Assembly: GCA_021323315.1 (NCBI GenBank) | Contig: JAJTCQ010000008.1 | Location: forward strand, 30,160-94,159 | Length of the DNA stretch: 64,000 nt | Direction of reading: 5' to 3' | Source of the DNA: Gaiellaceae bacterium | GTDB lineage: Bacteria > Actinomycetota > Thermoleophilia > Gaiellales > Gaiellaceae | Shown: in pieces, positions 6,930 through 47,993 of the stretch | Numbering within the stretch: position 1 is the first letter of the stretch | How the letters are laid out: each line of letters opens with the position of its first letter | Program-made: the position numbers and the translations under genes | The notes under the pieces: generated by a model | Seen by the model: the letters and a program-made list of their open reading frames with translations, nothing else | What the model was told of the DNA's origin: nothing | Database searches by the model: none

Positions 6930-8327
6930 GTGGCGACGGACCTGGAGCGTTTCGTCGACGCGGACGGTCGGGCGGAGCTCGTGAAGGACGCCCGGAAGAA
7001 GATCGACGCCGAAGGCGTCACGTACGTCTACTACCAGTTCATCTCTGTCACCGGTCGCATCATGGGCAAGGGCGTGCCGGCCCCCCATTGGGAGACGATC
7101 GCGCAGAAGGGCTTCCAGCTCGTCTACGGCTCGACCGCCAACCTCTTCACGGATCGCCATGGCGGCTACATCGGCTACGGCCCCGAGGCCTGGGAGCTCG
7201 TCGGGATCCCGGAGCCAGAGACGTTCGAGGTCCTCCCCTGGGACAACCGCGTCGCGCGTGTCTGGTGTACCTGCTTCCGCAACCGCGAGGATCGCGACGG
7301 ACCGGGGGCGTTCCTGACCTCGGACTGCCGCGGGAACCTGCGCCGCATCCAGGAGGAGTTCGAGGGCCGCACCGGGATGCACCTCCGCGCCGGGATGGAA
7401 CCGGAGATGATGTGGCTCCGCCTCAACCCGGACGGCACGCCCTCGGTCGAGGGCAAGACGAAGCCCTACTGCTACCACATCGACCAGTTCTCCGAGCTCC
7501 AGCCGATCATCCACAAGATGGTCGAGTACGGGCAGAAGCTGGGGCTCGACATGATCCAGGGCGACCACGAGGACGCGCCCGGGCAGATCGAGCTCAACTT
7601 CGGGTTCGACCGCGCAGAGCGCACCGCCGACAACCTCTCCACCTTCCGTCAGATCGCCAAGCAGGTAGGTCGTGAGGAGGGCGCGTTCCCGTGCTTCATG
7701 CCCAAGCCGTTCATGGGCGTCTCGGCGAACGGCTGCCACACGAACATCTCACTGTGGAAGGACGACGAGAACGTCTTCCTGCCGGACGGAGACGACGTGC
7801 ACATGCCGAGCCAGGTCGGCCTCCACGCCGTCGGCGGGATCCTCGAGCACCTGCGCGCTCTCACCTGCGTCACCGCGTCGACCGTGAACTCGTACCGCCG
7901 GTTCTGGGAGACCGGCTTCTGGGCGCCGGTCTTCGCCGACTGGGGCTACCAGAACAGGACGACCGCACTGCGGATCTCGTCGCCCGACCGCTTCGAGTAT
8001 CGGTCCGTGGACTCCGCAGTCAACCCGTACCTGGCCCTCGCGGGGCTGATCAAGGTGATGGACGACGGCATTCAGCGCGAGCTCGATCCCGGTCCGCCCG
8101 AGGAGTCGAACATCTACGAGGCGATCGAAGCCGGCAAGACGGTGAAGCGGGTGCCGATGACGCTCGGCGAGGCTCTCGAAGAGCTCGAACGGGACGACGT
8201 CGTCAAGAGCGCGCTACCGGACGAGATGTACCGTGTGTTCATGCACTACAAGCGCGACGAGTGGGAGCGCTATTGCGCCACCGTCTCCGACTGGGACGTG
8301 CAGGAATACCTCGACGTGCTGCCCTGA
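6930..8327 (+). CDS. Glutamine synthetase family protein (cluster 1; candidate gamma-glutamyl-amine ligase)
   Basis: GTG start; GS catalytic motifs HEDAPGQIELNFGF, FMPKPFMGVSANGCHTNISLW, TVNSYRRF, FEYRSVDSAVNPYLALAGLI; adjacent to split GOGAT genes. Confidence 0.88.
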   Translation: MATDLERFVDADGRAELVKDARKKIDAEGVTYVYYQFISVTGRIMGKGVPAPHWETIAQKGFQLVYGSTANLFTDRHGGYIGYGPEAWELVGIPEPETFEVLPWDNRVARVWCTCFRNREDRDGPGAFLTSDCRGNLRRIQEEFEGRTGMHLRAGMEPEMMWLRLNPDGTPSVEGKTKPYCYHIDQFSELQPIIHKMVEYGQKLGLDMIQGDHEDAPGQIELNFGFDRAERTADNLSTFRQIAKQVGREEGAFPCFMPKPFMGVSANGCHTNISLWKDDENVFLPDGDDVHMPSQVGLHAVGGILEHLRALTCVTASTVNSYRRFWETGFWAPVFADWGYQNRTTALRISSPDRFEYRSVDSAVNPYLALAGLIKVMDDGIQRELDPGPPEESNIYEAIEAGKTVKRVPMTLGEALEELERDDVVKSALPDEMYRVFMHYKRDEWERYCATVSDWDVQEYLDVLP

Positions 8328-8348
8328 CGAGAGACGGAGCGGACGCCC

Positions 8349-9284
8349 ATGTGCGGCATCGCAGGGATCATCTACCGGGACGGCTCGGAGCACGCCATCG
8401 GCGCCGAGATGACGCGGATGCTCCAGTCGATGAAGCACCGCGGGCCCGACTCGACCGGCTTTGCGTTGTACGGGAACGGCGAGAACGGCAACCTCGTCAT
8501 GCGCTACAAGCTCGCGGACGCGAACACGCCCCGCGACTTCGACTTCGAGGATCGCCTCCGTAGGCATCGCACCGAGGTCGAGGCACGACTCGTTGCGCTC
8601 GGCGGCCGCATCGACGAGGTCGAGGAGGAGACGCCGTACGCATTCCGCGTCTCGTTCGGCTACGACGGCGACCTGAAGCTGCTCGCCGACTTCGTCGAGG
8701 ACATCCCCGAGGCCGAGGTGCTCTCGCTCGGCCGCGCGCTCGAGATCGTCAAGGACCTGGGCGACGCCGAGTCCGTCCACGATCAGTACGGCCTCGCCGA
8801 CTTCAAGGGCACGCACGCGATCGGGCACGTGCGCATGGCGACGGAGTCGGAGGTCGATATCGCCGGCGCGCACCCGTACTGGGCGTATCCCTACTCCGAC
8901 GTCGCGGTCGTGCACAACGGCCAGCTCACGAACTACTTCATGTGGCGCCGCCGGCTCGAGCGCGCAGGTCGCCGCTTCATGTCCGAGTGCGACTCGGAGA
9001 TCATCGCCGTCTACCTCGCGGAGGAGATGTCGAAGGGCGCCTCCCTCCAGGAGTCGATGCACAAGTCGCTCGACGAGCTCGACGGCGTCTTCACGTACAT
9101 CGCGGTGACGAAGGACGAGCTCGGCGTCGCGAAGGACGAGCTCGCCGCGAAGCCGCTCGTGCTCTACGAATCCGACGACCTCGTCGCGCTCGCCTCCGAG
9201 GAGATCGCGATCCGGCAGCTCGTGGACCACGAGATCGAGACGTACGACCCGTACGAGCGGGAAGTGTTGGTTTGGCAGCGGTAG
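8349..9284 (+). CDS. Class II glutamine amidotransferase (GOGAT N-terminal domain-like; GlxB/MgsA-type, cluster 1)
   Basis: MCGIAGIIYRDG with N-terminal Cys2 nucleophile; MKHRGPDSTGFALYG; HAIGHVRMATES...VVHNGQLTN. Confidence 0.88.
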   Translation: MCGIAGIIYRDGSEHAIGAEMTRMLQSMKHRGPDSTGFALYGNGENGNLVMRYKLADANTPRDFDFEDRLRRHRTEVEARLVALGGRIDEVEEETPYAFRVSFGYDGDLKLLADFVEDIPEAEVLSLGRALEIVKDLGDAESVHDQYGLADFKGTHAIGHVRMATESEVDIAGAHPYWAYPYSDVAVVHNGQLTNYFMWRRRLERAGRRFMSECDSEIIAVYLAEEMSKGASLQESMHKSLDELDGVFTYIAVTKDELGVAKDELAAKPLVLYESDDLVALASEEIAIRQLVDHEIETYDPYEREVLVWQR

Positions 9285-10060
9285 GCGAGCGGCAGATCTC
9301 GTACGACGCGCGCGGGCTCGCCGAGCCGGTCGCGGATGCACCGAGAACCGCGGTCGTCGAGGACGGCGTCGCGACCTTCGACGCGCGCGAGCTCACGACG
9401 CGGACGATCAACCTCGAGCTCCGCCGACTCCTGTACGAGGAAGGCGTCGGAGAGGTCGTCGTCCAGAACCCGCAGGGCCGCCATTCGCTCGGAGTCGGGA
9501 TCCTGCGCCGCTGCCGGATCCGCTTCGAGGGCTCGCTCGGCTACTTCGCGTGCGGGCTGATCGACGGGCCGGAGATCCACATCACGGGCCGAGTGGGCTG
9601 GTCCGCCTGCGAGAACATGATGTCCGGCGTCGTCGTCGTCGACGGGAACGGCGGCTCGCTCACCGGCGCTGCCATGCGTGGAGGCGACCTTCTGGTGAAG
9701 GGCCGTGTCGGAGCGCGCACCGGGATCGACCAGAAGGGCGGCACGATCATCATCGGCGGGTCGGTCGGCTCGATGACCGGGTTCATGATGCAGCGCGGAC
9801 GCATGATCATCTGCGGCGACGCCGGCCCGGGCCTCGGCGACTCGATGTACGACGGCACGATCTACGTCGCGGGCACGGTGAAGTCGCTCGGCATCGACTG
9901 CGTGCCCGGCGAGTGGACGGACGCGGACACCGAGCTCATCGAGCGGAAGTTCCGGATCTACGGTCTCGGCTCTCCGCCGGAGTTCCAGAAGTTCGTGTGC
10001 GGGAAGGTCCTCTACAACTACGACTCGCTCGAGCCCTCCGAGAAGAAGCTGGTGATCTAG
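9272..10060 (+). CDS. GXGXG-domain protein (GOGAT C-terminal domain-like; GlxC/MgsB-type, cluster 1)
   Basis: Beta-helix GXGXG repeats GRVGWSACENMMSGVVVVDGNGGSLTGAAMRGGDLLVKGRVGARTGIDQKGGTIIIGGSVG; probable TTG start overlapping previous stop. Confidence 0.85.
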   Translation: MAAVGERQISYDARGLAEPVADAPRTAVVEDGVATFDARELTTRTINLELRRLLYEEGVGEVVVQNPQGRHSLGVGILRRCRIRFEGSLGYFACGLIDGPEIHITGRVGWSACENMMSGVVVVDGNGGSLTGAAMRGGDLLVKGRVGARTGIDQKGGTIIIGGSVGSMTGFMMQRGRMIICGDAGPGLGDSMYDGTIYVAGTVKSLGIDCVPGEWTDADTELIERKFRIYGLGSPPEFQKFVCGKVLYNYDSLEPSEKKLVI

Positions 10061-11506
10061 ATGCCCACCGAGAACGGCGGCCCGTCCCAGAAGGACGTCC
10101 TCGGTCGCAGCCGCATCTTCACGCCCGAGGTCGTCAACGACATCCACATCAAGGCCGAGCTCGGGCGCTACCGCATGCGGGGCTTCTCGATCTTCAAGCC
10201 GATGCCGCACTGGGACGAGCTCGTGTTCCTTCCCGGCACGCTGACGCGCTTCGTCATCGAGGGCTACCGGGAGAAGTGCGACACGACGACGGTGCTCGGC
10301 GCGCGCTTCGCGAAGAACCCGATGGAGCTCGACATCCCAATCTACATCACCGGCATGTCGTTCGGCGCCCTCTCGCTCGAGGCGAAGATGGCGCTCGCGA
10401 AGGGCGCGTCCATGGCCGGCACGGCAACGTGCTCGGGCGAGGGCGGGATGATCCCGCCGGAGCGCGACTACTCGACGAAGTGGTACTACCAGTGCATCCA
10501 GTCGCGGTACGGGTTCAACCCGCACCACCTGATGCTCGCGGACGCGTGCGAGTTCTTCATCGGGCAGGGCTGCAAGGTCGGCCTCGGCGGCCATCTGATG
10601 GGGCAGAAGGTCACCGAGCAGGTCGCGGAGATGCGCTCGCTCCCTGCGGGGATCGACCAGCGCTCGCCCGCGCGGCACCCCGACTGGCTCGGTCCCGACG
10701 ACCTCTCGCTCAAGGTGCAGGAGATCCGCGAGGCGACCGACTACCGGATCCCGATCCAGCTCAAGCTCGGCGCCTCGCGGGTGTACGACGACGTGCGCAT
10801 GGCCGCGAAGTGCGGGCCGGACATCATCTACCTCGACGGAGCCGAGGGCGGCACCGGCGCCGGCCCGCACATCGCGACCGAGGAGACTGGCATCCCGCTG
10901 ATGGCGGCGATCCCCGAGGCGCGGCGAGCGCTCGAAGACGTCGGACTCGCGGACGAGATCGACCTCGTCGTCGCGGGCGGGATACGCAACGGCGCCGACG
11001 TCGCGAAGTGCCTCGCGCTCGGCGCGAAGGCCGTCGCGCTGGGGCACTCGGCGCTCATGGCGCTGAACTGCAACAAGGAGATCCCTGGCGTCACGGATTA
11101 CGAGGGGACGGTCGGCGTCCCCGCGGGCCAGTGCTACCACTGCCACACCGGCCGCTGCCCGGTGGGCATCACCACCCAGGACCCGGAGCTCCGCAAGCGC
11201 CTGGTCGTCGAGGACGCCGCGAACCGCGTCTACAATTTCCTCACCGCGCTGACCATGGAGCTGCAGATGCTCGCGCGGGCATGCGGCAAGACGAACGTGC
11301 ACTCCCTCGAGCCGGAGGACCTCGCGGCGCTGACGGTCGAGGCCTCGGCGATGGCGCGAGTGCCGCTCGCCGGAACGACCTACACGGTCGGCCAGACCGA
11401 GCGTGAGATCCTCTCCGAGGTGCAGCGCCTGCTCGCGATCAAGGCCGAGGAGGAGCTCGCCGCCAACCCGACCGCGCAGGTCGCCGACCTCCACTCGGTG
11501 GAGTAG
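10061..11506 (+). CDS. FMN-binding glutamate synthase family protein (GlxD/MgsC-type, cluster 1) with Cys-rich CYHCHTGRC motif
   Basis: ITGMSFGALSLEAKMALAKGASMAGTATCSGEGGMIPPER...LGGHLMGQKVTEQVAEMRSLPAGIDQRSPARHPDW...VVAGGIRNGADVAKCLALGAKAVALG...QCYHCHTGRCPVGITTQ. Confidence 0.9.
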   Translation: MPTENGGPSQKDVLGRSRIFTPEVVNDIHIKAELGRYRMRGFSIFKPMPHWDELVFLPGTLTRFVIEGYREKCDTTTVLGARFAKNPMELDIPIYITGMSFGALSLEAKMALAKGASMAGTATCSGEGGMIPPERDYSTKWYYQCIQSRYGFNPHHLMLADACEFFIGQGCKVGLGGHLMGQKVTEQVAEMRSLPAGIDQRSPARHPDWLGPDDLSLKVQEIREATDYRIPIQLKLGASRVYDDVRMAAKCGPDIIYLDGAEGGTGAGPHIATEETGIPLMAAIPEARRALEDVGLADEIDLVVAGGIRNGADVAKCLALGAKAVALGHSALMALNCNKEIPGVTDYEGTVGVPAGQCYHCHTGRCPVGITTQDPELRKRLVVEDAANRVYNFLTALTMELQMLARACGKTNVHSLEPEDLAALTVEASAMARVPLAGTTYTVGQTEREILSEVQRLLAIKAEEELAANPTAQVADLHSVE

Positions 11507-11956
11507 ATGAGCTCCCACGATCTCGCCTACACCGAGCCCGAGAAGATCAAGTCGCTCGACGCCGAGTTCCTGTCCGGCCACCGCTTCCCGTACCAGGAGG
11601 ACCTGTCCCTCGTCGAGGACGTCGATCTCATGGCGTCGACGCCGGGCGAGGACATCAACTGGCTCGAGGACGTCGCACTCCTCGAGGAGGACGGCGTGCC
11701 CGCGGTCTTCGACCGCTACTCGAACGCCTTCCTGAAGATCTACTTCCCGATCCCGGAGGGGCGGGAGGACGAGATCGCCCGCAAGGTTCTCGTGACGCAC
11801 CTGCAGTCGGGCAACTCGTACGGCATCCTGCTCAAGGAGCTCCACTGCAAGTTCCCCCAGCCCGAGCTCGGCCCGTGGGTCGAGGGCTCGAGGACCGTCG
11901 GCACGGACTACTCGCCGCCCGTCCTTGAGGGCTGGGAAAAACCCGCCGGGCATTAG
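11507..11956 (+). CDS. Uncharacterised 149-aa protein at the end of cluster 1
   Basis: Start directly abuts upstream stop; MSSHDLAYTEPEKIKSLDAEFLSGHRFPYQEDLSLVEDVDLMASTPGEDINWLED...; acidic, no recognised family. Confidence 0.75.
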   Translation: MSSHDLAYTEPEKIKSLDAEFLSGHRFPYQEDLSLVEDVDLMASTPGEDINWLEDVALLEEDGVPAVFDRYSNAFLKIYFPIPEGREDEIARKVLVTHLQSGNSYGILLKELHCKFPQPELGPWVEGSRTVGTDYSPPVLEGWEKPAGH

Positions 11957-12070: not shown

Positions 12071-12790
12071 GTGCCGCGCGTCGTGCGAGCACTCGTCCTT
12101 CAGCACATCGCCTGCGAGCCACCCGGGGTGTTCGAGGACGTGCTGCGCGAGCGCGACGTCGAGCTTCACCGCGTCGAGCTCGACGAAGGGGACGCACTGC
12201 CCGACTGGCGCGACTTCGATGCGATCGTCGCGATGGGCGGACCGATGTCCGTCAACGACGACGCGGAGCTTCCGTGGCTGAGAGAGGAAAGGGGGGCGAT
12301 CGGCGATGCGGTTCGCGCCGGGAGGCCGTACTGGGGAGTCTGCCTCGGGGTCCAGCTCCTGGCCGCGTCGCTCGGTGCTCGCGTCTATCCGGGGCCGGAG
12401 CCCGAGGTGGGGCTACTGCCTGTGAGCATGACGGGCGAAGCTCGCTCGGATCCAGTATTCGGCGAAGCACCGCACGAGCTCGTGACGCTGCAGTGGCACG
12501 GCGACACGTTCGAGCTCCCGGACGGCGCGGTCCGACTCGCGAGCTCGCCCGCGTACGCGAACCAGGCCTTCCGCTTCGAGCGCGCGTACGGCGTCCAGTT
12601 CCACCTCGAGGTCTCGGCCGAGATGGCGCGCGAGTGGGCCGAGGTGCCCGCGTACGTGAGCTCGCTCGAGCGGACGCTCGGCGCGGACGGCGCTCCCGCC
12701 TTCCTCGCGTCGATCGAGGAGAAGGCCGACCAGATGCGCGCCGCTGGACGCTCGCTCTTCGAGCGCTGGCTCGACCGCGTCGCGACATGA
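12071..12790 (+). CDS. Type 1 glutamine amidotransferase (GuaA-like GATase1)
   Basis: FDAIVAMGGPMSVNDDAELPWL...GRPYWGVCLGVQLLAASLGARVYPGPEPEVG...YGVQFHLEV; catalytic Cys in GVCLG, His in QFHLE. Confidence 0.87.
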   Translation: MPRVVRALVLQHIACEPPGVFEDVLRERDVELHRVELDEGDALPDWRDFDAIVAMGGPMSVNDDAELPWLREERGAIGDAVRAGRPYWGVCLGVQLLAASLGARVYPGPEPEVGLLPVSMTGEARSDPVFGEAPHELVTLQWHGDTFELPDGAVRLASSPAYANQAFRFERAYGVQFHLEVSAEMAREWAEVPAYVSSLERTLGADGAPAFLASIEEKADQMRAAGRSLFERWLDRVAT

Positions 12791-12829
12791 CAGGGAAAGC
12801 CGGGACCGGCTCCCGAAGGGCACTCACCA

Positions 12830-12855
12830 CGAAGCCTCGCGGTCGGCGGGCTTCG
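12830..12855. terminator. Strong hairpin between convergent genes, candidate bidirectional terminator
   Basis: CGAAGCCtCGC-GGTCG-GCGGGCTTCG inverted repeat between stops at 12790 (+) and 12877 (-); no T-tract, so not a classical intrinsic terminator. Confidence 0.4.
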
Positions 12856-12876
12856 CACTGAGACCGGTCGCGGTCG

Positions 12877-13218
12877 CTAGGTAGAGACCGGAACCTTCCC
12901 TTCCGGAGTCACCTTGTCGATGACATCCTGTAGGACGTCGGCCGTTCTCTGCGCAGCCGTGTCGACGTCGACCCCGGCCTTGTCCGCCACCGCCTGCAGC
13001 TTCTGGGGATCCACCGTCTTCTTGATGTCCTCGGCAGTCGCCGGCGTGTTCGGGCCGGTCGAGATCCACGAGTCCACCTTGTCCCCGAGACCGCTCGACT
13101 CGAACTTCTGCCTGAGCGAGCTCACGTCGATGTCGCCGACCAGGTCCTTGAGCTGGCTCTGCAGCTTGCCCGTGTCACCGGTCGAGATTGCCGCCTTCAG
13201 GTCGTCGAAGGGGCTCAT
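12877..13218 (-). CDS. YidB/DUF937-like small protein
   Basis: MSPFDDLKAAISTGDTGKLQSQLKDLVGDIDVSSLRQKFESSGLGDKVDSWISTGPNTPATAEDIKKTVDPQKLQAVADKAGVDVDTAAQRTADVLQDVIDKVTPEG. Confidence 0.8.
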   Translation of the reverse strand: MSPFDDLKAAISTGDTGKLQSQLKDLVGDIDVSSLRQKFESSGLGDKVDSWISTGPNTPATAEDIKKTVDPQKLQAVADKAGVDVDTAAQRTADVLQDVIDKVTPEGKVPVST

Positions 13219-13399
13219 GTCCACTCCTTCCTGACGCAGATAGGGCACTTCTCGCATGCCCCGTGCCGCACGCCGAAACCGACCAGCGGGTCGACGACTG
13301 GAGTCGACCGCGATGAGCGACGTAGCGCCGCGTGGCGCTGCCTCTGCGGGGCGGTGAGCTACGACTGCGCGGGTCGCTGCGCGCCATCTGCGTCTGGCA

Positions 13400-15472
13400 T
13401 TGCCCCGAGTGCAGCATTGGAGCGGTGCTGGACCGAGGCTTGTTGCGAAGTCGGCACGGAGACCGCCCGAAGCGATTCCTATACTCGCCCGCCTGACCGA
13501 TCTCGCCTCCCCGCTCCGCGAGCTCTTCGGCTTCGACGCCTTCCGGCAAGGGCAGGAGGACGTCGTCCGCGCCGCGATCGCCGGGCGAGACACGCTCGCG
13601 CTGATGCCGACCGGGTCGGGCAAGTCGCTGACCTACCAGCTCGCGGCGATGCTCCGCCCGGAGCCCACGCTCGTCCTCTCGCCGCTCATCGCGCTGATGA
13701 AGGACCAGGTGGACAAGCTTCCGCACCAGATCGCCGCGACGGCGACCTTCGTGAACTCGTCCCTCTCGCAGGATGAGACGGCGGAGCGCCTCGCAGCGGT
13801 CGAGCTGGGCGAGACGCGGCTCGTCTACGCGGCGCCGGAACGACTCCGCCAGGCGCGCTTCGTCGAGCTCCTCTCGACAGTCGGGATCGGGCTCGTCGTG
13901 GTGGACGAGGTGCACTGCGTGAGCATGTGGGGGCACGACTTCCGCCCCGACTACCTCTTCATCCGGCGCGGCCTCGAGGCACTCGGCGACCCGACGCTCC
14001 TCGGAATGACGGCGACGGCGACGCCGGAGACCGCACGCGACATCGGGCACGCGCTCGGGCGCGAGCTCGAGGTCGTGCACACGAGCGTCGTGCGCCCGAA
14101 TCTCCGCTACGACGTGCAAGAGGTCGCGAACGCCGAGGATCGAATCGAGATACTCGTCGAGCGCCTGCGCACGCTCCGCGGCGGCTCCGCGATCGTCTAC
14201 TCCAGATCGCGCCGCTCGACCGAGGAGCTGGCACGCGTCCTGCGCGGCCACGGCTTCCGCACCGAGCACTACCACGCGGGCCTCCAGCCGGCCGAGCGGA
14301 CCCGCGTCCAGGACGACTTCGTCGCCGATCGCGCGCAGGTCGTCGTCGCCACCACTGCCTTCGGGATGGGCATCGACAAGCCCGACGTGCGGCTCGTCTG
14401 TCTCGTGAGCTACCCGGACTCGCTCGAGGGTTACGTGCAGATGGTCGGACGAGCCGGGCGCGACGGCGAGCCGAGCCAGACGCTCCTGCTGGCGAGCCCC
14501 GCGGACGCAGGGACGCTCAGGCGCTTCGCGGTCGCCGACGTGCCCTCGCTGACGGAGCTTCGCTCGGTCTACGGCGCGCTCCGGGTCGCGCAGGGCCTCG
14601 TCGATCCCGACGAGCTCTCCGCCGTGGTGCCCGATCGCGACGCACGCGTGCTCGTCGGGATGCTCGAGCAGGCGGGTCTCCTCCGTCGCGACTTCGACGA
14701 AGGACGACGCATGCGGATCTCGCTCGATGCCGCGCCGCGCGACGCGCCCGAGCGCGTCGAGACGCTGCTGGAGCGCGCGCGGCTCGTCGCGGAGTCGCGT
14801 GCGGACCGGGTCGTCGCGTTCGCCGAGACGCGCGTCTGCCGCCACGAGCAGGTCGCCGTGCACTTCGGGGAGCGGTTCGACGCGCCGTGTGGAAGCTGCG
14901 ACGTGTGCGCCCCGCTCGCGCGTGGATCGGCGTCGATCTCGAGCCCGCCACCTCCCCTGCCGGAGGACGTCGGAGTTGCGATCGTCGACGCCGTCGCGTC
15001 GCTCACCTGGCCGCTCGGGCGACGGAGCCTCCTGGCGACGCTCCGCGGGTCGTTGAAGGCGCCGCCGTCGGCGCGCAGGTCGCTCGCGTACCGGATCCTC
15101 GCGGCCGCAAGCGACGCCGAAGTGCGTCGCTGGGTCGAGCTCGTCCAGCGGTCAGGAGCTTTAGTCGAGGTGACCACGCCTGACGGGTTCCGCGTCCTCC
15201 ACGTCGATCCGGCCGTACCGCCGCCGCGCATCGGAACCGGCATGGCCGCCGACGTCGACGAGGACCTCGTCGCGCGACTGCGCAGCTGGCGCCTGGAGCG
15301 CTCGCAGGAGGACGCCGTGCCGGCCTACGTGGTCCTCCACGACGCCACGCTGCGCGAGCTTGCGGCAGTTCGTCCACGGACGCTCGACGAGCTCGCAGGG
15401 ATCAAGGGATTCGGCCCGGTGAAGGTCGACCGCTACGGCGACGCCCTGCTCGCCGTTCTCGCCACGGCCTAG
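13400..15472 (+). CDS. recQ: ATP-dependent DNA helicase RecQ family (helicase + zinc/RQC + HRDC); exact start uncertain
   Basis: LFGFDAFRQGQEDVVRAAIAGRDTLALMPTGSGKSLTYQLAAM...VVDEVHCVSMWGHDFRPDY...GYVQMVGRAGRDGEPS; C-terminal HRDC LRELAAVRPRTLDELAGIKGFGPVKVDRYGDALL. Confidence 0.93.
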   Translation: MPRVQHWSGAGPRLVAKSARRPPEAIPILARLTDLASPLRELFGFDAFRQGQEDVVRAAIAGRDTLALMPTGSGKSLTYQLAAMLRPEPTLVLSPLIALMKDQVDKLPHQIAATATFVNSSLSQDETAERLAAVELGETRLVYAAPERLRQARFVELLSTVGIGLVVVDEVHCVSMWGHDFRPDYLFIRRGLEALGDPTLLGMTATATPETARDIGHALGRELEVVHTSVVRPNLRYDVQEVANAEDRIEILVERLRTLRGGSAIVYSRSRRSTEELARVLRGHGFRTEHYHAGLQPAERTRVQDDFVADRAQVVVATTAFGMGIDKPDVRLVCLVSYPDSLEGYVQMVGRAGRDGEPSQTLLLASPADAGTLRRFAVADVPSLTELRSVYGALRVAQGLVDPDELSAVVPDRDARVLVGMLEQAGLLRRDFDEGRRMRISLDAAPRDAPERVETLLERARLVAESRADRVVAFAETRVCRHEQVAVHFGERFDAPCGSCDVCAPLARGSASISSPPPPLPEDVGVAIVDAVASLTWPLGRRSLLATLRGSLKAPPSARRSLAYRILAAASDAEVRRWVELVQRSGALVEVTTPDGFRVLHVDPAVPPPRIGTGMAADVDEDLVARLRSWRLERSQEDAVPAYVVLHDATLRELAAVRPRTLDELAGIKGFGPVKVDRYGDALLAVLATA

Positions 15473-15539
15473 TTCTTGCCGCAACTCGTCGGCACTGCCT
15501 AGGATGAACGGCGAGAACGCCAATCCGGTGGAGGTGAGC

Positions 15540-36494: not shown

Positions 36495-36527
36495 CGCTGT
36501 GCCAGAATCCGCAACGAACCTACATCG

Positions 36528-38649: not shown

Positions 38650-38725
38650 GTACCCCGCGTCGCGGAGACACCAAGAGACAGACGATGAAGCCCCCACGAG
38701 ACACGAGCAGGGCGCCAGGGACGTC

Positions 38726-38905
38726 GTGACGACGTGGCGTCGCAACCAGCTCGCCGCGGCCGGGTTCACCCTCCCGGAGGCAGGGCGACTGGCGCGCGAC
38801 CCGCGATACGACCTCCACGCCCTGCTCGAGCTCGTGGACCGTGGCTGCCCGCCCGACCTGGCGGTGCGCATCCTCGCTCCGCTCGACGAGTCGGATGCGG
38901 CATGA
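38726..38905 (+). CDS. Small hypothetical protein
   Basis: VTTWRRNQLAAAGFTLPEAGRLARDPRYDLHALLELVDRGCPPDLAVRILAPLDESDAA; overlaps start of sigma gene. Confidence 0.6.
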   Translation: MTTWRRNQLAAAGFTLPEAGRLARDPRYDLHALLELVDRGCPPDLAVRILAPLDESDAA

Positions 38906-39591: not shown

Positions 39592-39815
39592 TGGAGCACG
39601 CCAATCTCAACCGAGCACTCGGGCGCTTGCTCGGCCCGGAAGGCCCCGAGATCGGGTGCGATGTCTGCTTCGAGGAGCTCGACCGCTACGTCGACCTCGA
39701 GCTCGCGGGCAAGGACGCCGATGCGGCGATTCCGGGACTGCGCGCGCACCTCGCGGGGTGCCCGGCGTGCCGCGAGGAGCACGACAGCCTGTACGCGCTC
39801 GTCGCCGGCGAGTAG
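39591..39815 (+). CDS. Zinc-finger anti-sigma-like protein (zf-HC2)
   Basis: CDVCFEELDRYVDLELAGKDADAAIPGLRAHLAGCPACREEHDSLYALV: HLAGCPACxEE motif; adjacent to sigma gene. Confidence 0.75.
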   Translation: MEHANLNRALGRLLGPEGPEIGCDVCFEELDRYVDLELAGKDADAAIPGLRAHLAGCPACREEHDSLYALVAGE

Positions 39816-39849
39816 TCCGGCGGGCGAGCCAGGAGCCGCGTGTGTCCTC

Positions 39850-39884
39850 GGCCCCGGCCACCCCGTGTTTGTCCGGCTGGGGCC
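39850..39884. terminator. Hairpin between convergent genes, candidate terminator
   Basis: GGCCCCgGCC...GGCtGGGGCC inverted repeat between stops 39815 (+) and 39903 (-). Confidence 0.4.
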
Positions 39885-39902
39885 TGATCGTTCGCTGCCG
39901 GG

Positions 39903-40853: not shown

Positions 40854-40942
40854 GCGTCGAAGTGAAGCAGAGATAGAGGGCGGTAGTTGCCCTATTTCCT
40901 CGATAGCGTCACGGGGTCAGACAGCGATCCGAAGGAGCGCCG

Positions 40943-41443
40943 ATGAGAGCGGATGTGAGAGAGCGGGCGAGCTCGCAGGACTTCGACTTCTTCATGGGGC
41001 GGTGGGAGGTACACAATCGCCGCCTCGTCGAGCGGCTTGCCGGATCGGACGAGTGGGACGAGTTCGGCTCGAAGGTGGCCGTACGCCAGCTGCCCGGCGG
41101 GCTCGGCAACGAGGACGTCTTCTGCGCCGACTACGGCGGAGGCTTCGTCGGGATGTCGTTCCGCTTCTACGATCCCGAGACGGGCGCGTGGTCGATCTAC
41201 TGGGCGGACAGCCGCCGGCCAGGGCTGCTCGACCCGCCCGTGATCGGCTCCTTCTCGGGGGACACGGGCATCTTCGAGGGAGCGGACACGTTCGAGGGCA
41301 GGCCGATCCGAGTGCGATTCACCTGGTCGCGGGTCACGTCTCCGACTCCGCGCTGGGAGCAGGCGTTCTCCGACGACGATGGGGAGACGTGGGAGACGAA
41401 CTGGATCATGGACTTCGCGCGCACGCTGGAGGCTGCGTCGTGA
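40943..41443 (+). CDS. DUF1579-like hypothetical protein
   Basis: DFDFFMGRWEVHNRRLVERLAGSDEWDEFGSKVAVRQLPGGLGNEDVFCADYGGGFVGMSFRFYDPETGAWSIYWADSR. Confidence 0.75.
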   Translation: MRADVRERASSQDFDFFMGRWEVHNRRLVERLAGSDEWDEFGSKVAVRQLPGGLGNEDVFCADYGGGFVGMSFRFYDPETGAWSIYWADSRRPGLLDPPVIGSFSGDTGIFEGADTFEGRPIRVRFTWSRVTSPTPRWEQAFSDDDGETWETNWIMDFARTLEAAS

Positions 41444-41946
41444 GCGCACTCGAGCAGTCGAGCAGCGTCACGCCCGAGTACCGGCACGTCGAGAAGGTCG
41501 TCACGCCGGAGCCGAGCCTCGCGCTGGAAGGAACGATCCTCAAGTGGTACGACATCGCGCCCGACGATGCCCCCGTTCCGCTCGCGATCCGAGCCCTCGC
41601 ACGCCGCAACCTGCGCGACGCGGCCCACGACCGGACGCTCGGCGACCTCGGCGACCTCGGCTTCGTGGTTCTCCACCGCTGCGGTGAGGACTTCTACTTC
41701 CTGCTGCTCTGCACCTGGCGCAACGAGAACGAGCTCTGGGAGACCGTCTGGGCGAAGAACGGCGCCGGCGACGTCTTCTTCCGGCCGTGGCCGACGGACG
41801 CGGCCCACCGCCCCACGTTCTGCGTCTGGGAACTCGGCGCCCTCTGTCACGAGCGGGATGCCTGGGGCGAGTACCTCTGCTCGGCCCGCGACGAGACAGC
41901 GCGAAAGACGTACTTGCGCTCCTCGTACGAGGGAGTCGTGTGCTGA
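41440..41946 (+). CDS. Hypothetical protein
   Basis: GTG start overlapping upstream stop; VSALEQSSSVTPEYRHVEKVVTPEPSLALEGTILKWYDIAPDDAPVPLAIRALARRNL. Confidence 0.7.
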   Translation: MSALEQSSSVTPEYRHVEKVVTPEPSLALEGTILKWYDIAPDDAPVPLAIRALARRNLRDAAHDRTLGDLGDLGFVVLHRCGEDFYFLLLCTWRNENELWETVWAKNGAGDVFFRPWPTDAAHRPTFCVWELGALCHERDAWGEYLCSARDETARKTYLRSSYEGVVC

Positions 41947-42260
41947 TGGCGAGCGCGCAGGAGGGTCAGGAGCTCTTCCTCGTCCGGGTCGAGCGCGGCG
42001 GCCCGTGGGACTGGTCGAAGGACATGCGCGAGCAGGAGCAATGGCCGGAGCACGCGCGGTTCATGAACTCCCTCGTCGACGACGGTCTCATCCTCCTGGG
42101 CGGCCCGGTCGAGGGTGAACGCGGTGCGTTCCACGTCGTGGACGCGGCCTCGGAGGACGCGCTGCGCGCACGATTCGCAGAGGATCCATGGGCCAGGAAC
42201 GGGATGCTGACGATCGCGAGCGTCGAGCGCTGGACCATCCTTCTCGCTCCCGAGGAGTGA
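41946..42260 (+). CDS. YCII-related domain protein
   Basis: LFLVRVERGGPWDWSKDMREQEQWPEHARFMNSLVDDGLILLGGPVEGERGAFHVVDAASEDALRARFAEDPWARNGMLTI. Confidence 0.8.
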   Translation: MASAQEGQELFLVRVERGGPWDWSKDMREQEQWPEHARFMNSLVDDGLILLGGPVEGERGAFHVVDAASEDALRARFAEDPWARNGMLTIASVERWTILLAPEE

Positions 42261-42285
42261 GGACGCCCCCGGTAGCGTCCGGGCA

Positions 42286-42696
42286 GTGCAGTTCGACACG
42301 AAGCTCGCGGTCATCCTCCGCGACGACCTCGCCGTGTGGCAGAAGACGAACGTGACGGCCTTCCTCGTGAGCGGGATCGCCGCGACCGAGCCGGGAGTGG
42401 TGGGCGAGCCGTACCGAGACGGGTCCGGCAACGAGTATCTGCCGATGTTCGTCCAGCCGGTGCTCGTCTACGAGGCCGACGCACCAGCGCTACGGCGGGC
42501 GTACGAGCGGGCACTGAGCCGCGGCGTCCAGCCGGCCGTCTACACGCGCGAGCTCTTCGAGACGAACCACGACGAGGCGAATCGCGCAGCCGTCGCCACT
42601 GTGCCCGCCGACCAGCTCGACCTCGTCGGCCTCGCCTTCCGGGCGGACCGCAAGGTCGCGGACAAGATCGTCGACCGTCTGCGCTTCCACCCGTGA
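42286..42696 (+). CDS. DUF2000 family protein
   Basis: FDTKLAVILRDDLAVWQKTNVTAFLVSGIAATEPGVVGEPYRDGSGNEYLPMFVQPVLVYEAD. Confidence 0.8.
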   Translation: MQFDTKLAVILRDDLAVWQKTNVTAFLVSGIAATEPGVVGEPYRDGSGNEYLPMFVQPVLVYEADAPALRRAYERALSRGVQPAVYTRELFETNHDEANRAAVATVPADQLDLVGLAFRADRKVADKIVDRLRFHP

Positions 42697-43568
42697 CCGC
42701 CGCCACGCGGACCGTAGGAGTCGTCAGTCCGGGCGCGATGGGAAGCGCGGTCGGTGCCGTGCTCGCTCGTGGTGGAGCACGGGTCGTCGCGACGCTCGCG
42801 GGTCGAAGCGAGCGGACGCGCCGGCTCGCGGAGCGCGCCGGCATCGAGCTCCTGCCCGACCTCGAATCGGTCGTACGCGAGGCGAACGTCGTTCTCTCCA
42901 TCGCGCCGCCCGAAGCTGCCCGTGCGATCGCGGCCGACATCCGCAGCACGGCGGGCATGGCGGCGGCGCAGCCCCTCGTCGCCGACCTCAACGCCGTCGC
43001 CCCGGCGACCGCGCTGGCGATCGCAGACGAGCTGTCGCGCGCGGGGCTCGACCTCGTCGACGGGTCCATCTCCGGCTCGCCGCCGTGGAAGCCCGGGACG
43101 ACTCGCATCTACCTCTCCGGGGCGCGAGCACACGAGCTCGCCGACCTTCCGATGGAAGGCGTTCAGCGCATCGTGGTCGGCGACGAGGTCGGCACGGCTT
43201 CGGCCGTGAAGATGAGCACCGCAGCGGTCTACAAGGGCACGTCCGCGCTGCTTGCCCAGGCACTGGTCGCCGCGCAGGCCAATGGGGTCGTCGAGCACGT
43301 GCTCGACGACCTGCGGGCGGGGGCGCCCGAGCTCGTCGCAAATCTCGAGCGGAGGCTGACGAGCTCGGCGTCGAAGTCGGGTCGCTACGTCGGCGAGATG
43401 CGCGAGATCGCGACGACCCAGAAGGCTGCCGGCCTCACGCCGGCGCTCTTCGAGGCGATGGCTGAGGTGTTCGGGTCGCTGTCGGCGACCGAACTCGCGC
43501 GAGCGACGTTCCCCGAAGACCTCCCCGAGGGGCTACCGCTCGCGCAGGTGCTCGACCGGCTGCGCTAG
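42693..43568 (+). CDS. NAD(P)-binding 6PGDH-like / DUF1932 protein
   Basis: VGVVSPGAMGSAVGAVLARGGARVVATLAGRSERTRRLAERAGIELLPDLESVVREANVVLSIAPPEAARAIA...VDGSISGSPPWKPGTTRIYLSG. Confidence 0.82.
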   Translation: MTAATRTVGVVSPGAMGSAVGAVLARGGARVVATLAGRSERTRRLAERAGIELLPDLESVVREANVVLSIAPPEAARAIAADIRSTAGMAAAQPLVADLNAVAPATALAIADELSRAGLDLVDGSISGSPPWKPGTTRIYLSGARAHELADLPMEGVQRIVVGDEVGTASAVKMSTAAVYKGTSALLAQALVAAQANGVVEHVLDDLRAGAPELVANLERRLTSSASKSGRYVGEMREIATTQKAAGLTPALFEAMAEVFGSLSATELARATFPEDLPEGLPLAQVLDRLR

Positions 43569-44893
43569 GAGGCGCTGCCCGGGATCCAGTTGGTCCCGGC
43601 GAGCGGGACCTTGGCCATGGCAGCGGCCTCGACCGTCAACGCGACGAGGTCCTCGGGCTCCAGGTTGTGGACATGCGACTTCCCGCACGCGCGCGCGAGC
43701 GTCTGCGTCTCGAGGGTGAGCACGCGCAGGTAGTTCGCGATGCGGCGGCCGCCGAGGATCGGGTCGAAGCGCGCCGCAAGCTCGTCGTCCTGCGTCGAGA
43801 TCCCGGTCGGATCGCGTCCGGCCTGCCAGTCGTCGTAGAACCCGGCGGCACTGCCGATCTCACGGTACGCCTCGTCGTGCTCGGGCGCGTTGTCGCCCAT
43901 CGCCACCAGCGCGGCCGTCCCGATCGACACGGCGTCCGCCCCGAGTGCGAGCGCTTTCGCGACATCTGCCCCGCTCCGGATCCCGCCCGAGACGATCAGT
44001 TGCACCTGCCGGTGCATGCCGAGCTCCTGCAGCGCCTCGACCGCGATCCTCGTCGCCGGAAGGGTCGGGATGCCGACGTGCTCGATGAAGACGTCCTGGG
44101 TGGCGGCCGTTCCACCCTGCATGCCGTCGACGACGATGACGTCCGCGCCCGCCTTGACGGCGAGCTGGACGTCGTAGTACGTCCGCGTAGCGCCAACCTT
44201 GACGAAGATGGGCTTCTCCCAGTCCGTGATCTCGCGGAGCTCGTGGATCTTGATCTCGAGGTCGTCGGGGCCTGTCCAGTCGGGGTGTCGCGACGCCGAC
44301 CGCTGGTCGATGCCCTTCGGTAGCGAGCGCATCTCGGCGACGCGGTCGGAGATCTTGTGGCCCAGGAGCATTCCGCCGCCTCCCGGCTTGGCACCCTGGC
44401 CGACCACGACCTCGATCGCGTCCGAGCGGCGCAGGTCGTCGGGGTTCATTCCGTAGCGGCTCGGAAGCAGCTGATAGACGAGCGTCTTGGAGTGCTCGCG
44501 CTCCTCGGGCGTCATGCCGCCGTCCCCCGTGGTCGTCGAGGTGCCCACCTCGGTCGCCCCGCGCCCGAGCGCCTCCTTCGCGGGCGCGGAGAGCGCGCCG
44601 AAGCTCATGCCGGCGATCGTCACCGGGATCTTCAGCTCGAGCGGCTTCCTGGCGAACCGTGAGCCGAGGACGACGTCGGTGGCGCACCGCTCTCGGTACC
44701 CCTCGAGGGGATAGCGCGAGATCGACGCGCCCAGGAAGAGGAGGTCGTCGAAGTGCGGGAGACGCCGCTTGGCGCCGAACCCGCGGATGTCGTAGATGCC
44801 CTCGGTCGCGGCCCGCTGGATCTCGGCGATGACCGTGCGGTCGAAGAGGTACGACTCGCGGAGATTCCAGGGGTGCCCGCCCTGCGTCGCCAT
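43565..44893 (-). CDS. glxD: FMN-binding glutamate synthase family protein (GlxD/MgsC-type, cluster 2), lacks the Fe-S cysteine motif
   Basis: IAGMSFGALSAPAKEALGRGATEVGTSTTTGDGGMTPEER...IFVKVGATRTYYDVQLAVKAGADVIVVDGMQGGTAATQDVFIEHVGIPTLPA...GSAAGFYDDWQAGRDPTGISTQ. Confidence 0.88.
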   Translation of the reverse strand: MATQGGHPWNLRESYLFDRTVIAEIQRAATEGIYDIRGFGAKRRLPHFDDLLFLGASISRYPLEGYRERCATDVVLGSRFARKPLELKIPVTIAGMSFGALSAPAKEALGRGATEVGTSTTTGDGGMTPEEREHSKTLVYQLLPSRYGMNPDDLRRSDAIEVVVGQGAKPGGGGMLLGHKISDRVAEMRSLPKGIDQRSASRHPDWTGPDDLEIKIHELREITDWEKPIFVKVGATRTYYDVQLAVKAGADVIVVDGMQGGTAATQDVFIEHVGIPTLPATRIAVEALQELGMHRQVQLIVSGGIRSGADVAKALALGADAVSIGTAALVAMGDNAPEHDEAYREIGSAAGFYDDWQAGRDPTGISTQDDELAARFDPILGGRRIANYLRVLTLETQTLARACGKSHVHNLEPEDLVALTVEAAAMAKVPLAGTNWIPGSAS

Positions 44894-44898
44894 GTTCG

Positions 44899-44922
44899 TA
44901 GGGCGAGGCTTGCCTCGCCCTA
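44899..44922. promoter_or_regulatory. Perfect palindrome/hairpin between the glxC and glxD-type genes of cluster 2
   Basis: TAGGGCGAGGC-TT-GCCTCGCCCTA, 11-bp arms, overlapping the glxC stop codon and 6 bp upstream of the glxD start. Confidence 0.6.
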
Positions 44923-45636
44923 GTACTCCGCAGCGTGGTCGACGTGGAAGTTGTACAGCTGCCGCGCGGAGCCGTATCGCCGGAACTCGCTCGGGTCGGC
45001 GTCGATCTCGGCCGCCTCGAGCAACGCGCGCACGTGCTCGACGTGCTCCTCGCGAAGCTCCTTCTCGATGCAGTCGGCCCCGAGGCTCGCGACCGAGCCG
45101 CGGACGTACAGCCGCGCCTCGTAGATCGAGTCGCCGAGCGCCTCACCGGCGTCGCCACAGACCACGAGACAGCCTGTCTGCGCCATGAACGCGCTCATGT
45201 GGCCGACCGACCCGCCGACGACGATGTCGATCCCCTTCATCGAGATGCCGCAGCGCGACGAGGCGTTTCCACGCACGACGAGGAGCCCGCCGCGCCCGGT
45301 GGCTCCCGCCGACTGACTCACGTTCCCGTCGACGACGACTTGCCCGGACATCATGTTCTCCGCGATCCCCGTGCTCGCGTTGCCGTGAACGCGTACCGCC
45401 GCGCGCTTGTTCATGCCCGCGCAGTAGTAGCCCACGTGCCCGTCGATCTCGACCTCCACGTCGGCGTCGAGCCCGCACGCCACGGCGTGCGCGCCGCTCG
45501 GGTTGACGACGCGGAAGCGCCGCGGCCCCGGCGCTCCGCTCGCGAGGTCGTGCAGGCGCTGGTTGAGCACGCGGACCGAGGTCGTCGAGAGGTCGACGAC
45601 CTCGACCGCGGCGTGCTCGCGCTCGGCAACGGTCAT
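44920..45636 (-). CDS. glxC: GXGXG-domain protein (GlxC/MgsB-type, cluster 2)
   Basis: VEIDGHVGYYCAGMNKRAAVRVHGNASTGIAENMMSGQVVVDGNVSQSAGATGRGGLLVVRGNASSRCGISMKGIDIVVGGSVGHMSAFMAQTGCLVVCGDAGEALGDSIYEARLYVRG. Confidence 0.87.
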   Translation of the reverse strand: MTVAEREHAAVEVVDLSTTSVRVLNQRLHDLASGAPGPRRFRVVNPSGAHAVACGLDADVEVEIDGHVGYYCAGMNKRAAVRVHGNASTGIAENMMSGQVVVDGNVSQSAGATGRGGLLVVRGNASSRCGISMKGIDIVVGGSVGHMSAFMAQTGCLVVCGDAGEALGDSIYEARLYVRGSVASLGADCIEKELREEHVEHVRALLEAAEIDADPSEFRRYGSARQLYNFHVDHAAEY

Positions 45637-46541
45637 CCGACGAGCTCCTTCTCCCACGCATAGACGACCCCGGGCTCGGGCTCCCACGCGGCCGCGTCCG
45701 CCGCGCCGGGGAGCACTGCGATCGACCGCCACTCCGACGACATCGCGACCCAGTCGTCGGTCTCGGCGAGGACGGCCGGCTTGCACGCGATCGGATCGCG
45801 CAGCACGGCGAATCCGTCGGCCGTTCCGACCGCAAACGTGTAGAAGCCGTCGAGGTCCTCGAGACAGCCCTCGAGCGCTTGCTCGAGCGTGGCTCCCTCA
45901 CGGAGCCGCCACGCCAGGTAGCCCGCCGCGACCTCGGTGTCGTTCTCGGTCCGGAACTCGATGCCCGCGCGTCTGAGGTTCTCGCGGAGGCGATTGTGGT
46001 TCGAGAGCGAGCCGTTGTGGACGAGGCAGAGGTCGAAACCCGTCGAGAACGGATGAGAGCCTTCGGTCGTGACACGGCTCTCCGTCGCCATGCGCGTGTG
46101 GCCGAGTGCGTGCGTCCCGCGCATGTCCTCGAGCGCGAATCGTCGCGCGAAATCCTCCGGCAGGCCGGTCTCCTTGTAGATCTCGATCACGCGCCCGGCG
46201 CTCATGACGCGCAGTCCGGGGCGGTTCGCGCGAACCCATGACTCGGCCTCGTCCGCCGTCTCACCGACGACGAACACGGCGTGGCTGGCGCGGACGGAGG
46301 GGTCCGAGCACTCGCCGAACGCGTCTCGCAACGCATCTCTCACCTGCCCCCACGGCTCGCCCGGGTCGGCCGAGTACAGCGTCAGCTTGCTCGCATCGTT
46401 CCCCGCCGAGTCGCGATACACGGCGACACCGGCCGAATCGGGGCCGCGGCTCGACATCTGGACGAGCATCCCAGAGAGGTGGGCACCCAGGCGATGTTCG
46501 ATCTCGGGCGACTTCGCGAACAGGCCGACGATTCCACACAT
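45633..46541 (-). CDS. glxB: Class II glutamine amidotransferase (GlxB/MgsA-type, cluster 2)
   Basis: MCGIVGLFAKSPEIEHRLGAHLSGMLVQMSSRGPDSAGVAVY...HALGHTRMATESRVTTEGSHPFSTGFDLCLVHNGSLSNHNRLRENLR. Confidence 0.9.
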   Translation of the reverse strand: MCGIVGLFAKSPEIEHRLGAHLSGMLVQMSSRGPDSAGVAVYRDSAGNDASKLTLYSADPGEPWGQVRDALRDAFGECSDPSVRASHAVFVVGETADEAESWVRANRPGLRVMSAGRVIEIYKETGLPEDFARRFALEDMRGTHALGHTRMATESRVTTEGSHPFSTGFDLCLVHNGSLSNHNRLRENLRRAGIEFRTENDTEVAAGYLAWRLREGATLEQALEGCLEDLDGFYTFAVGTADGFAVLRDPIACKPAVLAETDDWVAMSSEWRSIAVLPGAADAAAWEPEPGVVYAWEKELVG

Positions 46542-46613
46542 GTGGTCAGTATCTCCACATCGACGTGCCCTTTTTCACGTTATTTCGCCTAAGCGTATGG
46601 AGAAAAGCGACAC

Positions 46614-47993
46614 CTAGAACCGCGTCAGGTACTCCCGGATCTCCCAGGGCGTGACCTGCTCGTGGTACCGGAACCACTCGTCGCGCTTCACGCGCGCGAA
46701 GTAGTCGACATAGTCCTCGTCGCGGCCGCGTCCGAGCGCGGCGCGGAGCACGTCGTCGCCCTCGAGCTCGCCGATCGCCTCGAGCAGGTTCGCCGGGAGG
46801 GACTGCAGGCCGCGCGCCCGAAGATCCTGCTCGGGGACCGTGTAGAGGTTCTCGGAGTTCGGCTCGCCCGCGTCCAGCCCGCGCTCGATCCCGTCGAGCC
46901 CGGCGGCGAGCACGGCCGCCGCCGCGAGGTACGGATTGCAGGAGCCGTCGATCGTGCGATCCTCGATCCGTCCCGGCCCCGGGATCCGAAGCATCTGGGT
47001 GCGGTTGTTGTAGCCGTAGGAGATCCAGACCGGCGACCAGGTGGCGCCGCTCGACGTCGTCCCCAGCTTGAGGCGCTTGTACGAGTTCACCGTCGGCGCC
47101 GTGACGCCGCTGTACGCCCGAGCATGCGCGCGCAGGCCGCCGATGAACTTGTACGCGGTGTCCGAGAGCCCGAGCCCGCGCGGATCGGATTCGTCGAGGA
47201 AGAGGTTCGTGCCGCCGTCCCACAGCGACATGTGGAAGTGGCAGCCGTTCCCCGTCAGGTGCGAGAACGGCTTCGGCATGAAGGTCGCGATCATCCCGTG
47301 CTGCTCGGCGAGCGTATGGACCATGTAGCGGAAGAAGATGGCGCGATCGCAGGAGACGAGCGCGTCGTCGTAGGTGAGGTTCTGCTCGAACTGGCCGTTC
47401 GCGTCCTCGTGGTCGTTCGCGTAGTTGCCCCAACCGAGGCCGTTGCAGAATCGGGAGACGGTCGTCAGGAAGTCATAGCGCCTCGTGAGCCCGGCCATGT
47501 CGTAGCAGGGCTTCTCGAGCGTGTCGTACGCGTCCGCGATCTCGATCGAGCCGTCGTCACGCTGCCGCACCAGGAAGTACTCGAGCTCGAGCCCCATCCG
47601 GAATTCGAAGCCCTTCTCCTTGGCCCGCGCGAGGACGCGCCGGAGGATCGTGCGCGGGCAGTACGCCCACTCCTCTCCCTCCACCGTGACGTCGCAGGCG
47701 AACCGCGCCAGGTTCGGCTGCCAGGGCACCGGCGTGTAGCTGGCGAGATCGGGGATCGCCGCGATGTCCGGGTCGCTCGGCACCTGCCCGATCTCGCCGG
47801 CGGCGAACCCCGCGAAGCCCGCGCCGTCCTCGAGGAGCCCGTCGAACGCCTCGCGCGAGCCGACGGGCACGAGCTTCGCGCTCGGCCTCGCGTACATGTC
47901 GACGAACTGCGCGAACACGAACTCGACCCCACGCCCCTGCATGTCCTTCCAGATCGCATCCGCCGTTGGCACTGCCGTACCTCCCTCTGACAT
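46614..47993 (-). CDS. glnT: Type III glutamine synthetase GlnT-like / candidate gamma-glutamylmethylamide synthetase
   Basis: VEFVFAQFVDMYARPSAKLVPVGSREAFDGLLEDGAGFAGFAAGEIGQVPSDPDIAAIPDLASYTPVPWQPNLARFACDVTVEGEEWAYCPRTILRRVLARAKEKGFEFRMGLELEYFL...NDHEDANGQFEQN...FMPKPFSHLTGNGCHFHMSLWD. Confidence 0.9.
   Translation of the reverse strand: MSEGGTAVPTADAIWKDMQGRGVEFVFAQFVDMYARPSAKLVPVGSREAFDGLLEDGAGFAGFAAGEIGQVPSDPDIAAIPDLASYTPVPWQPNLARFACDVTVEGEEWAYCPRTILRRVLARAKEKGFEFRMGLELEYFLVRQRDDGSIEIADAYDTLEKPCYDMAGLTRRYDFLTTVSRFCNGLGWGNYANDHEDANGQFEQNLTYDDALVSCDRAIFFRYMVHTLAEQHGMIATFMPKPFSHLTGNGCHFHMSLWDGGTNLFLDESDPRGLGLSDTAYKFIGGLRAHARAYSGVTAPTVNSYKRLKLGTTSSGATWSPVWISYGYNNRTQMLRIPGPGRIEDRTIDGSCNPYLAAAAVLAAGLDGIERGLDAGEPNSENLYTVPEQDLRARGLQSLPANLLEAIGELEGDDVLRAALGRGRDEDYVDYFARVKRDEWFRYHEQVTPWEIREYLTRF

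Follow-up and report, generated by a model that had tools for sequence, protein, structure and literature searches.

The window analysed here, a stretch of 64,000 nucleotides on a 94-kb contig of an uncultured Gaiellaceae actinobacterium (assembly of 1.5 Mb, 53% complete), carries two clusters that each encode a glutamine synthetase-like ligase (GS1 and GS2) and a glutamate synthase-like complex (MgsABC1 and MgsABC2), with a trimethylamine N-oxide (TMAO) demethylase (Tdm), a flavin adenine dinucleotide (FAD)-dependent oxidase (DAO) and a sarcosine oxidase-like (Sox) operon between them (Table 1). We propose, with a probability of roughly 55%, that this island breaks down methylated amines by two parallel glutamate-linked routes, in which cluster 1 and DAO would replace dimethylamine (DMA) monooxygenase. 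Cluster 1 probably represents a route of DMA use that has not been described before, DMA being the substrate that we infer for GS1 from its context, and the proposal is based on gene presence, conserved gene order, active-site residues and presence/absence patterns.

In the proposed scheme, Tdm would convert TMAO to DMA, which GS1 would join to glutamate, forming the hypothetical intermediate gamma-glutamyldimethylamide; MgsABC1, perhaps with the protein encoded directly downstream (u149), would transfer the dimethylamine onto 2-oxoglutarate, giving N,N-dimethylglutamate (also hypothetical), and the oxidative loss of one methyl group, hypothetically catalyzed by DAO, would leave N-methylglutamate. 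Methylamine would follow the known route in cluster 2 (GmaS and MgsABC2), both routes converging on N-methylglutamate; its demethylation by the SoxBDAG-like dehydrogenase would yield glutamate and, upstream of Fhs, methylene-tetrahydrofolate. The component enzymes are of known kinds; new would be the way in which they are combined and the replacement of DmmDABC by them. This combination found no match in the literature searched, outside which lay most subscription papers and all preprints; nor is dimethylamine named there together with dimethylglutamate or glutamyldimethylamide, which is weak evidence of novelty.

The match of Tdm to its family model NF053776 (cut-off 1100) is full length, covering residues 17–769. 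TMAO demethylase forms DMA and formaldehyde from TMAO; since Tdm yields DMA, the island begins two steps above methylamine, and it is this demethylase that explains the island. The two GcvT-type proteins that a preliminary description of this DNA had reported between the clusters are SoxA and this demethylase, which was overlooked as such, as were u149 and the membership of DAO in the cluster 1 module. Both clusters and much of the intervening DNA recur in order in the close relatives compared (Thermoleophilia and other Actinomycetota metagenome-assembled genomes), including G006, which belongs to the genus of the window and consists of one contig; given this ordered recurrence in many related genomes, the arrangement is not due to chance. 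The acyl-CoA dehydrogenase-like gene adjoins tdm in the genus, with 85–91% identity in G006, G039 and G003, and a gene of this kind adjoins GS2 in G080 and G089.

In both clusters, a glutamine amidotransferase-like, a GXGXG and a flavin mononucleotide (FMN) glutamate synthase-like subunit stand beside a putative amine ligase. Polar residues of RhGmaS were assigned to methylamine binding and catalysis, glutamine synthetases relying instead on an Asp50' loop and a Glu flap (PMC7948447). We compared these positions, in RhGmaS numbering, in 88 GS1 homologues, 17 GS2 homologues and the separate GlnA of the window's genome. Lys30, Tyr147, Asp177, Glu179, Glu186, Asn188 and Trp300 are kept in all 88 GS1 homologues (Gln175 in 85/88), among which the ammonia-binding Asp is replaced by Val. 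At the Asp50' and Glu flap positions, GS1 and GS2 have Val or Ala, and Trp, while GlnA has Asp and Glu. GS1 is therefore, to judge by its sequence, an amine ligase, because the GmaS residues are kept, the ammonia-binding Asp is replaced and the residues typical of glutamine synthetase are found in GlnA of the same genome. It falls below the cut-off of the type III model TIGR03105 (469.6 bits) and forms in the tree a clade separate from characterised GmaS. For cluster 1, the results support the earlier suggestion of a divergent copy adapted to another amine, the context narrowing the likely amine to DMA; plain glutamate synthesis, suggested as its other possible role, is disfavoured, as 88/88 GS1 homologues have neither the ammonia-site Asp nor the Glu flap. 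Canonical GmaS is weak on DMA (Km of 16 mM, versus 27 uM for methylamine; PMC7948447). Tdm makes DMA, the monooxygenase is missing and canonical GmaS is weak on DMA; the second, conserved amine ligase would, together with the glutamate synthase-like complex of its cluster and an oxidase of the N-methyl amino-acid type, stand in for Dmm.

Cluster 1 (6930–11956) is a conserved module with counterparts, often next to tmm and tdm, in both Actinomycetota and Proteobacteria. We scanned named bacterial genomes for GS1 and examined the best 80 of at least 571 confirmed relatives, a sample biased toward close relatives and with many loci on short contigs. In most complete loci the gene order is GS1, MgsA1-MgsB1-MgsC1 and u149; u149 is present in 52 of the 80 loci, the DAO family in 37/80, and tdm and/or tmm in the fetched flanks of 21/80. 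In a marine alphaproteobacterial locus (L110), a proV-type ABC transporter is followed by tmm (741.8 bits, cut-off 675), tdm (1119 bits), DAO, GS1-MgsABC1-u149, a GmaS-type ligase and amt, and Actinomycetospora cinnamomea DSM 45771 (L048) has tmm (805.6 bits), tdm (1186.3 bits), two amt genes, GS1-MgsABC1-u149 and a folD-like gene. The DAO family adjoins the GS1 operon downstream in Acidimicrobiia and upstream in Proteobacteria, and the window's DAO stands 13 kb from cluster 1; among proteins of solved structure, DAO comes closest to the beta subunits of sarcosine oxidase and to dimethylglycine oxidase. A three-cysteine motif in MgsC1, resembling the iron-sulfur site of glutamate synthase, is kept in 69/74 homologues and is gone from the window's MgsC2 and some homologues. 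Searches with u149 gave no Pfam, Protein Data Bank (PDB) or fold match; its AlphaFold model, of moderate quality (mean pLDDT 71.7), retrieved nothing meaningful from the PDB with Foldseek (best E 0.83), and in the window's relatives u149 was not seen adjoining GS2 clusters. Judged by gene order alone, u149 may act with MgsABC1, as one of its subunits or as a partner. We also noticed a family of about 180 residues, with no Pfam match, near GS1 in 11 proteobacterial loci (e.g., 15055–15600 in L110).

Presence/absence profiles were drawn up for a class set (289 genomes of the class of the alphaproteobacterial G163, the genome of locus L110) and for 121 genomes related to the window, its own included, with PF11927, the DmmA family, as marker for DMA monooxygenase. 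In the class set, tdm occurs in 24 genomes, GS1 in 29 and PF11927 in 37. GS1 is present in 19 of the 24 tdm-carrying genomes (Fisher p = 2.8e-18 for the association), among which PF11927 is matched only once, weakly (G196, 51 bits), whereas all five tdm-carrying genomes without GS1 have PF11927 (four strong matches and a weak one of 59 bits in G424). Inside the tdm-carrying genomes this exclusion is significant (Fisher p = 4.7e-4, strong matches only). DAO and GS1 are likewise associated (Fisher p = 9e-25), with GS1 in 24/30 DAO-carrying genomes. In the relatives set, tdm was found in 11/121 genomes, all 11 of which have both GS1 (only about 54% identical in two) and GS2, and PF11927 in 0/121, the window's own 53% complete genome among them. 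PF11927 is also missing from 43/46 named GS1-carrying genomes, and gave no match in the type strain A. cinnamomea DSM 45771. Oxidation of DMA by an enzyme of the trimethylamine or dimethylamine dehydrogenase type was considered and rejected for five of seven genomes checked (G003, which is 97% complete, G163, G372, G196 and G000), from which PF00724, the family that includes these dehydrogenases, is missing; G006 and G039 carry one gene each, that of G039 being closest to trimethylamine dehydrogenase (203 bits), and may have such a route.

Several observations weigh against the replacement of DMA monooxygenase by cluster 1 and DAO. The mutual exclusivity of GS1 and PF11927 is not significant over all 289 genomes (p = 0.22), the pattern being specific to those with tdm, and the Fisher p-values are too small because the genomes are not independent. 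Ten GS1-carrying class-set genomes are without tdm, five are without DAO at the cut-off used, and strong PF11927 matches occur in four GS1-carrying genomes (G125, G138, G151 and G431). PF11927 represents DmmA alone, and the window's genome is 53% complete.

Cluster 2 with SoxDAGB-Fhs looks, from its sequences, like the ordinary N-methylglutamate pathway for methylamine. GS2 exceeds the TIGR03105 cut-off. Among solved structures it is matched best by 7cql, the GmaS of Rhodovulum, and 9qur, a glutamate-methylamine ligase, and the tree puts it together with RhGmaS and 9qur at supports of 0.97 and 0.99. It retains the GmaS active-site residues K30, A48, Y147, D177, E179, E186, N188 and W300 and is without Asp50' and the Glu flap; Gln175 is replaced by Ala, as in 10/17 GS2 homologues. 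The preliminary description had proposed an indirect methylamine pathway, which stands for cluster 2 on the TIGR03105 score (598.9 bits), the solved GmaS relatives and the tree, but not for both clusters: the ligase phylogeny it had called for places GS2 with RhGmaS and 9qur, and GS1 in a separate clade, not with characterised GmaS. The SoxBDAG-like subunits are linked to gmaS-mgsABC, since in G006 only the IclR-type gene separates the Sox operon from the Mgs2 operon and in G073 the GS2, Mgs and Sox genes form a single run. SoxA, SoxB and SoxD all score under the sarcosine oxidase family cut-offs, and the SoxG-like protein had no Pfam match in the profile search; the SoxB-like protein is a probable N-methylglutamate dehydrogenase subunit.

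Among the other explanations, we regard it as unlikely that cluster 1 provides another route for methylamine, through a GmaS/Mgs isoform of other affinity or regulation, while methylamine is formed from DMA by an as yet unrecognised enzyme encoded elsewhere. The methylamine-binding residues of RhGmaS are indeed kept in GS1, and five genomes with tdm and GS1 (G214, G237, G243, G339 and G434) have no GmaS match at the cut-off used, so that GS1 might serve methylamine there; yet GmaS is also present in 14/19 class-set genomes with tdm and GS1 and in 11/11 tdm-carrying relatives of the window, the gene found where GS1 is missing is PF11927 and not GmaS, and DAO is no part of the known methylamine route. 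We think it quite unlikely that cluster 1 serves another amine (e.g., ethylamine, or one derived from choline or ethanolamine) and lies near tdm only because nitrogen-scavenging genes cluster. This would agree with the choline kinase-like gene near GS1 in L110, with the ten GS1-carrying class-set genomes that are without tdm and with the plasmid relatives of GS1, only 33–48% identical, which in some cases stand with gamma-glutamyl hydrolases and aldehyde dehydrogenases. These related clusters, however, have hydrolases and no glutamate synthase-like complex, and the strong association of tdm and GS1 in two separate genome sets, as well as the complementarity with PF11927 in tdm-carrying genomes, argue against it. 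Plasmid relatives 44–48% identical to GS1 (L164 7650–10470, L165 8977–10392 and L166 7523–10470) have different gene sets, with paired ligases, an amidotransferase and a P450 in Ruegeria and hydrolases and aldehyde dehydrogenases in Paracoccus and Rhodococcus, which suggests that these clusters serve other amines.

A variant in which a flavoenzyme (DAO or the acyl-CoA dehydrogenase-like protein) demethylates gamma-glutamyldimethylamide, the product of GS1, to gamma-glutamylmethylamide, from which MgsABC makes N-methylglutamate, seems very improbable. The flavoprotein gene directly before tdm would fit it, as would loci such as L110, in which both ligases have a single MgsABC set next to them that could act on an intermediate common to the two; but DAO belongs by family to the amine/amino-acid oxidases, which usually leave amides alone, and only a few of the loci examined have the acyl-CoA dehydrogenase-like gene in the vicinity of GS1. 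That both clusters are an ordinary ammonia-assimilating glutamine synthetase and glutamate synthase would accord with the generic family names (PF00120 and PF01645) only; we rejected it on the ligase residues and the separate GlnA, which has the ammonia-site residues that both cluster ligases are without, and, the tree disfavouring it too, we hold it to be extremely improbable. As to replacement of the monooxygenase by cluster 1 and DAO, its widest form would be an aerobic route for DMA, not described before, that does not pass through free methylamine, counts u149 as a new part of the synthase and is the general alternative to DmmDABC in TMAO degraders of several phyla; this form is tentative, and we put it at somewhat below even odds.

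Table 1. Features of the methylated-amine island and its surroundings (window positions; bits are profile or structure-sequence scores, with cut-offs in brackets where given).
Feature	Position	Strand	Evidence
GS1, divergent amine:glutamate ligase (predicted), glutamine synthetase superfamily	6930–8327	+	PF00120 298 bits; TIGR03105 325 bits (< 469.6); GmaS-type residues
MgsA1, class II glutamine amidotransferase-like subunit, N-terminus MCGI	8349–9284	+	PF13522, sequence
MgsB1, GXGXG subunit, start TTG at 9272 tentative	about 9272–10060	+	PF01493 44.9 bits; start scan
MgsC1, FMN glutamate synthase-like subunit, three-Cys motif	10061–11506	+	PF01645 313 bits
u149, conserved 149-aa protein directly after MgsC1	11507–11956	+	cluster 1 operon member; 52/80 best GS1 loci
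Class I glutamine amidotransferase and RecQ-type helicase	12071–15472		between u149 and acyl-CoA dehydrogenase-like gene
Acyl-CoA dehydrogenase-fold flavoprotein, one base upstream of tdm	15504–16940	+	PF02771/PF00441
Tdm, TMAO demethylase, 770 aa	16942–19254	+	NF053776 1174.7 bits (> 1100); solved TMAO demethylase 9q59 889 bits
Amt_a, ammonium transporter family, frameshifted in assembly	23840–25299	+	two tblastn pieces, two frames
DAO, FAD amine/amino-acid oxidase	25453–26772	+	PF01266; family adjoins GS1 operon elsewhere
Amt_b, ammonium transporter family, intact	27501–29000	+	PF00909 200.7 bits
Fhs, formate-tetrahydrofolate ligase	30208–31875	-	NF010030 783 bits (> 652)
SoxB-like subunit	31888–33102	-	TIGR01373 475.7 bits (< 529); frame
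SoxG-like subunit, assigned by position	33099–33617	-	between SoxA and SoxB; conserved in G006, G003
SoxA-like subunit: Fer2, A3, GcvT domains	33614–36205	-	TIGR01372 652.8 bits (< 1164); PF01571, PF13510, PF17806
SoxD-like subunit	36202–36468	-	TIGR01374 80 bits (< 116.5)
IclR-type regulator, between Sox operon and cluster 2	36480–37304	+	PF01614
WYL-type regulator	39903–40853	-	
DUF1932/NAD-binding dehydrogenase	42336–43568	+	
MgsC2, FMN glutamate synthase-like subunit	43565–44893	-	PF01645 295 bits
MgsB2, GXGXG subunit	44920–45636	-	PF01493 40.8 bits; start scan
MgsA2, class II glutamine amidotransferase-like subunit, N-terminus MCGI	45633–46541	-	PF13522, sequence
GS2, probable gamma-glutamylmethylamide synthetase (GmaS)	46614–47993	-	TIGR03105 598.9 bits (> 469.6); GmaS structures; tree
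PucR-type GAF regulator, directly upstream of GS2	48060–49889	-	PF13185, PF13556; adjoins GS2 in G006, G039, G003

The gene content given in the preliminary description agrees with these results: profile matches place the ligase, amidotransferase, GXGXG and glutamate synthase genes in both clusters, where they had been located, soxD-A-G-B-fhs is complete at 30208–36468 on the minus strand, and both Amt-family genes lie in between, Amt_b intact and Amt_a frameshifted. Amt_a is intact in G006 and G003, and its frameshift here may reflect either a true mutation or an error of the assembly. The counterpart of the region 12071–15472 in G039 holds a relative of DAO instead. The roughly 6 kb that separate cluster 2 from the IclR gene (37606–43568) are not in the corresponding place of G006, and the protein encoded at 57380–58069 has a cytochrome P460 domain, weak but above the cut-off (32.6 bits versus 27).

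In bacteria without dmm genes, the known aerobic trimethylamine (TMA) pathway breaks off at DMA, and many TMAO degraders are without a known enzyme for this step. Lidbury et al. described the DMA step as a metabolic bottleneck, SAR11 having tmm, tdm and gmaS and no dmmDABC (PMC5520151); SAR11 strain HTCC1062 grows on TMAO as nitrogen source, for which an unknown isoenzyme was proposed by the authors (PMC8918994). A GS1-type pathway, if true, would be a concrete and testable answer for many bacteria without dmm, and would weaken the inference, made from the scarcity of dmm genes, that DMA builds up in surface waters.

Compared with the N-methylglutamate pathway (GmaS, MgsABC and MgdABCD), the kinds of enzymes and their order are the same, and cluster 2 fits it; cluster 1 adds a separate ligase clade, u149 and a monomeric-type FAD oxidase, and its presence follows that of tdm and the absence of DmmA. 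The gamma-glutamylation routes (gamma-glutamylputrescine, and GlnA4 for ethanolamine) also activate the amine with glutamate by a glutamine synthetase-like ligase, but cluster 1 has a glutamate synthase-like complex, whereas those routes proceed by oxidation and then a gamma-glutamyl hydrolase. With the TMA/TMAO pathway of Ruegeria pomeroyi (Tmm, Tdm, DmmDABC and GmaS) the Tdm and GmaS steps are shared, and the marine alphaproteobacterial GS1 operon sits with tmm, tdm and gmaS, the very gene context of R. pomeroyi dmmDABC (PMC13390433). DmmDABC itself is absent here; we assign its step to GS1-MgsABC1-u149-DAO, a route that would spend ATP and glutamate and use no oxygenase.

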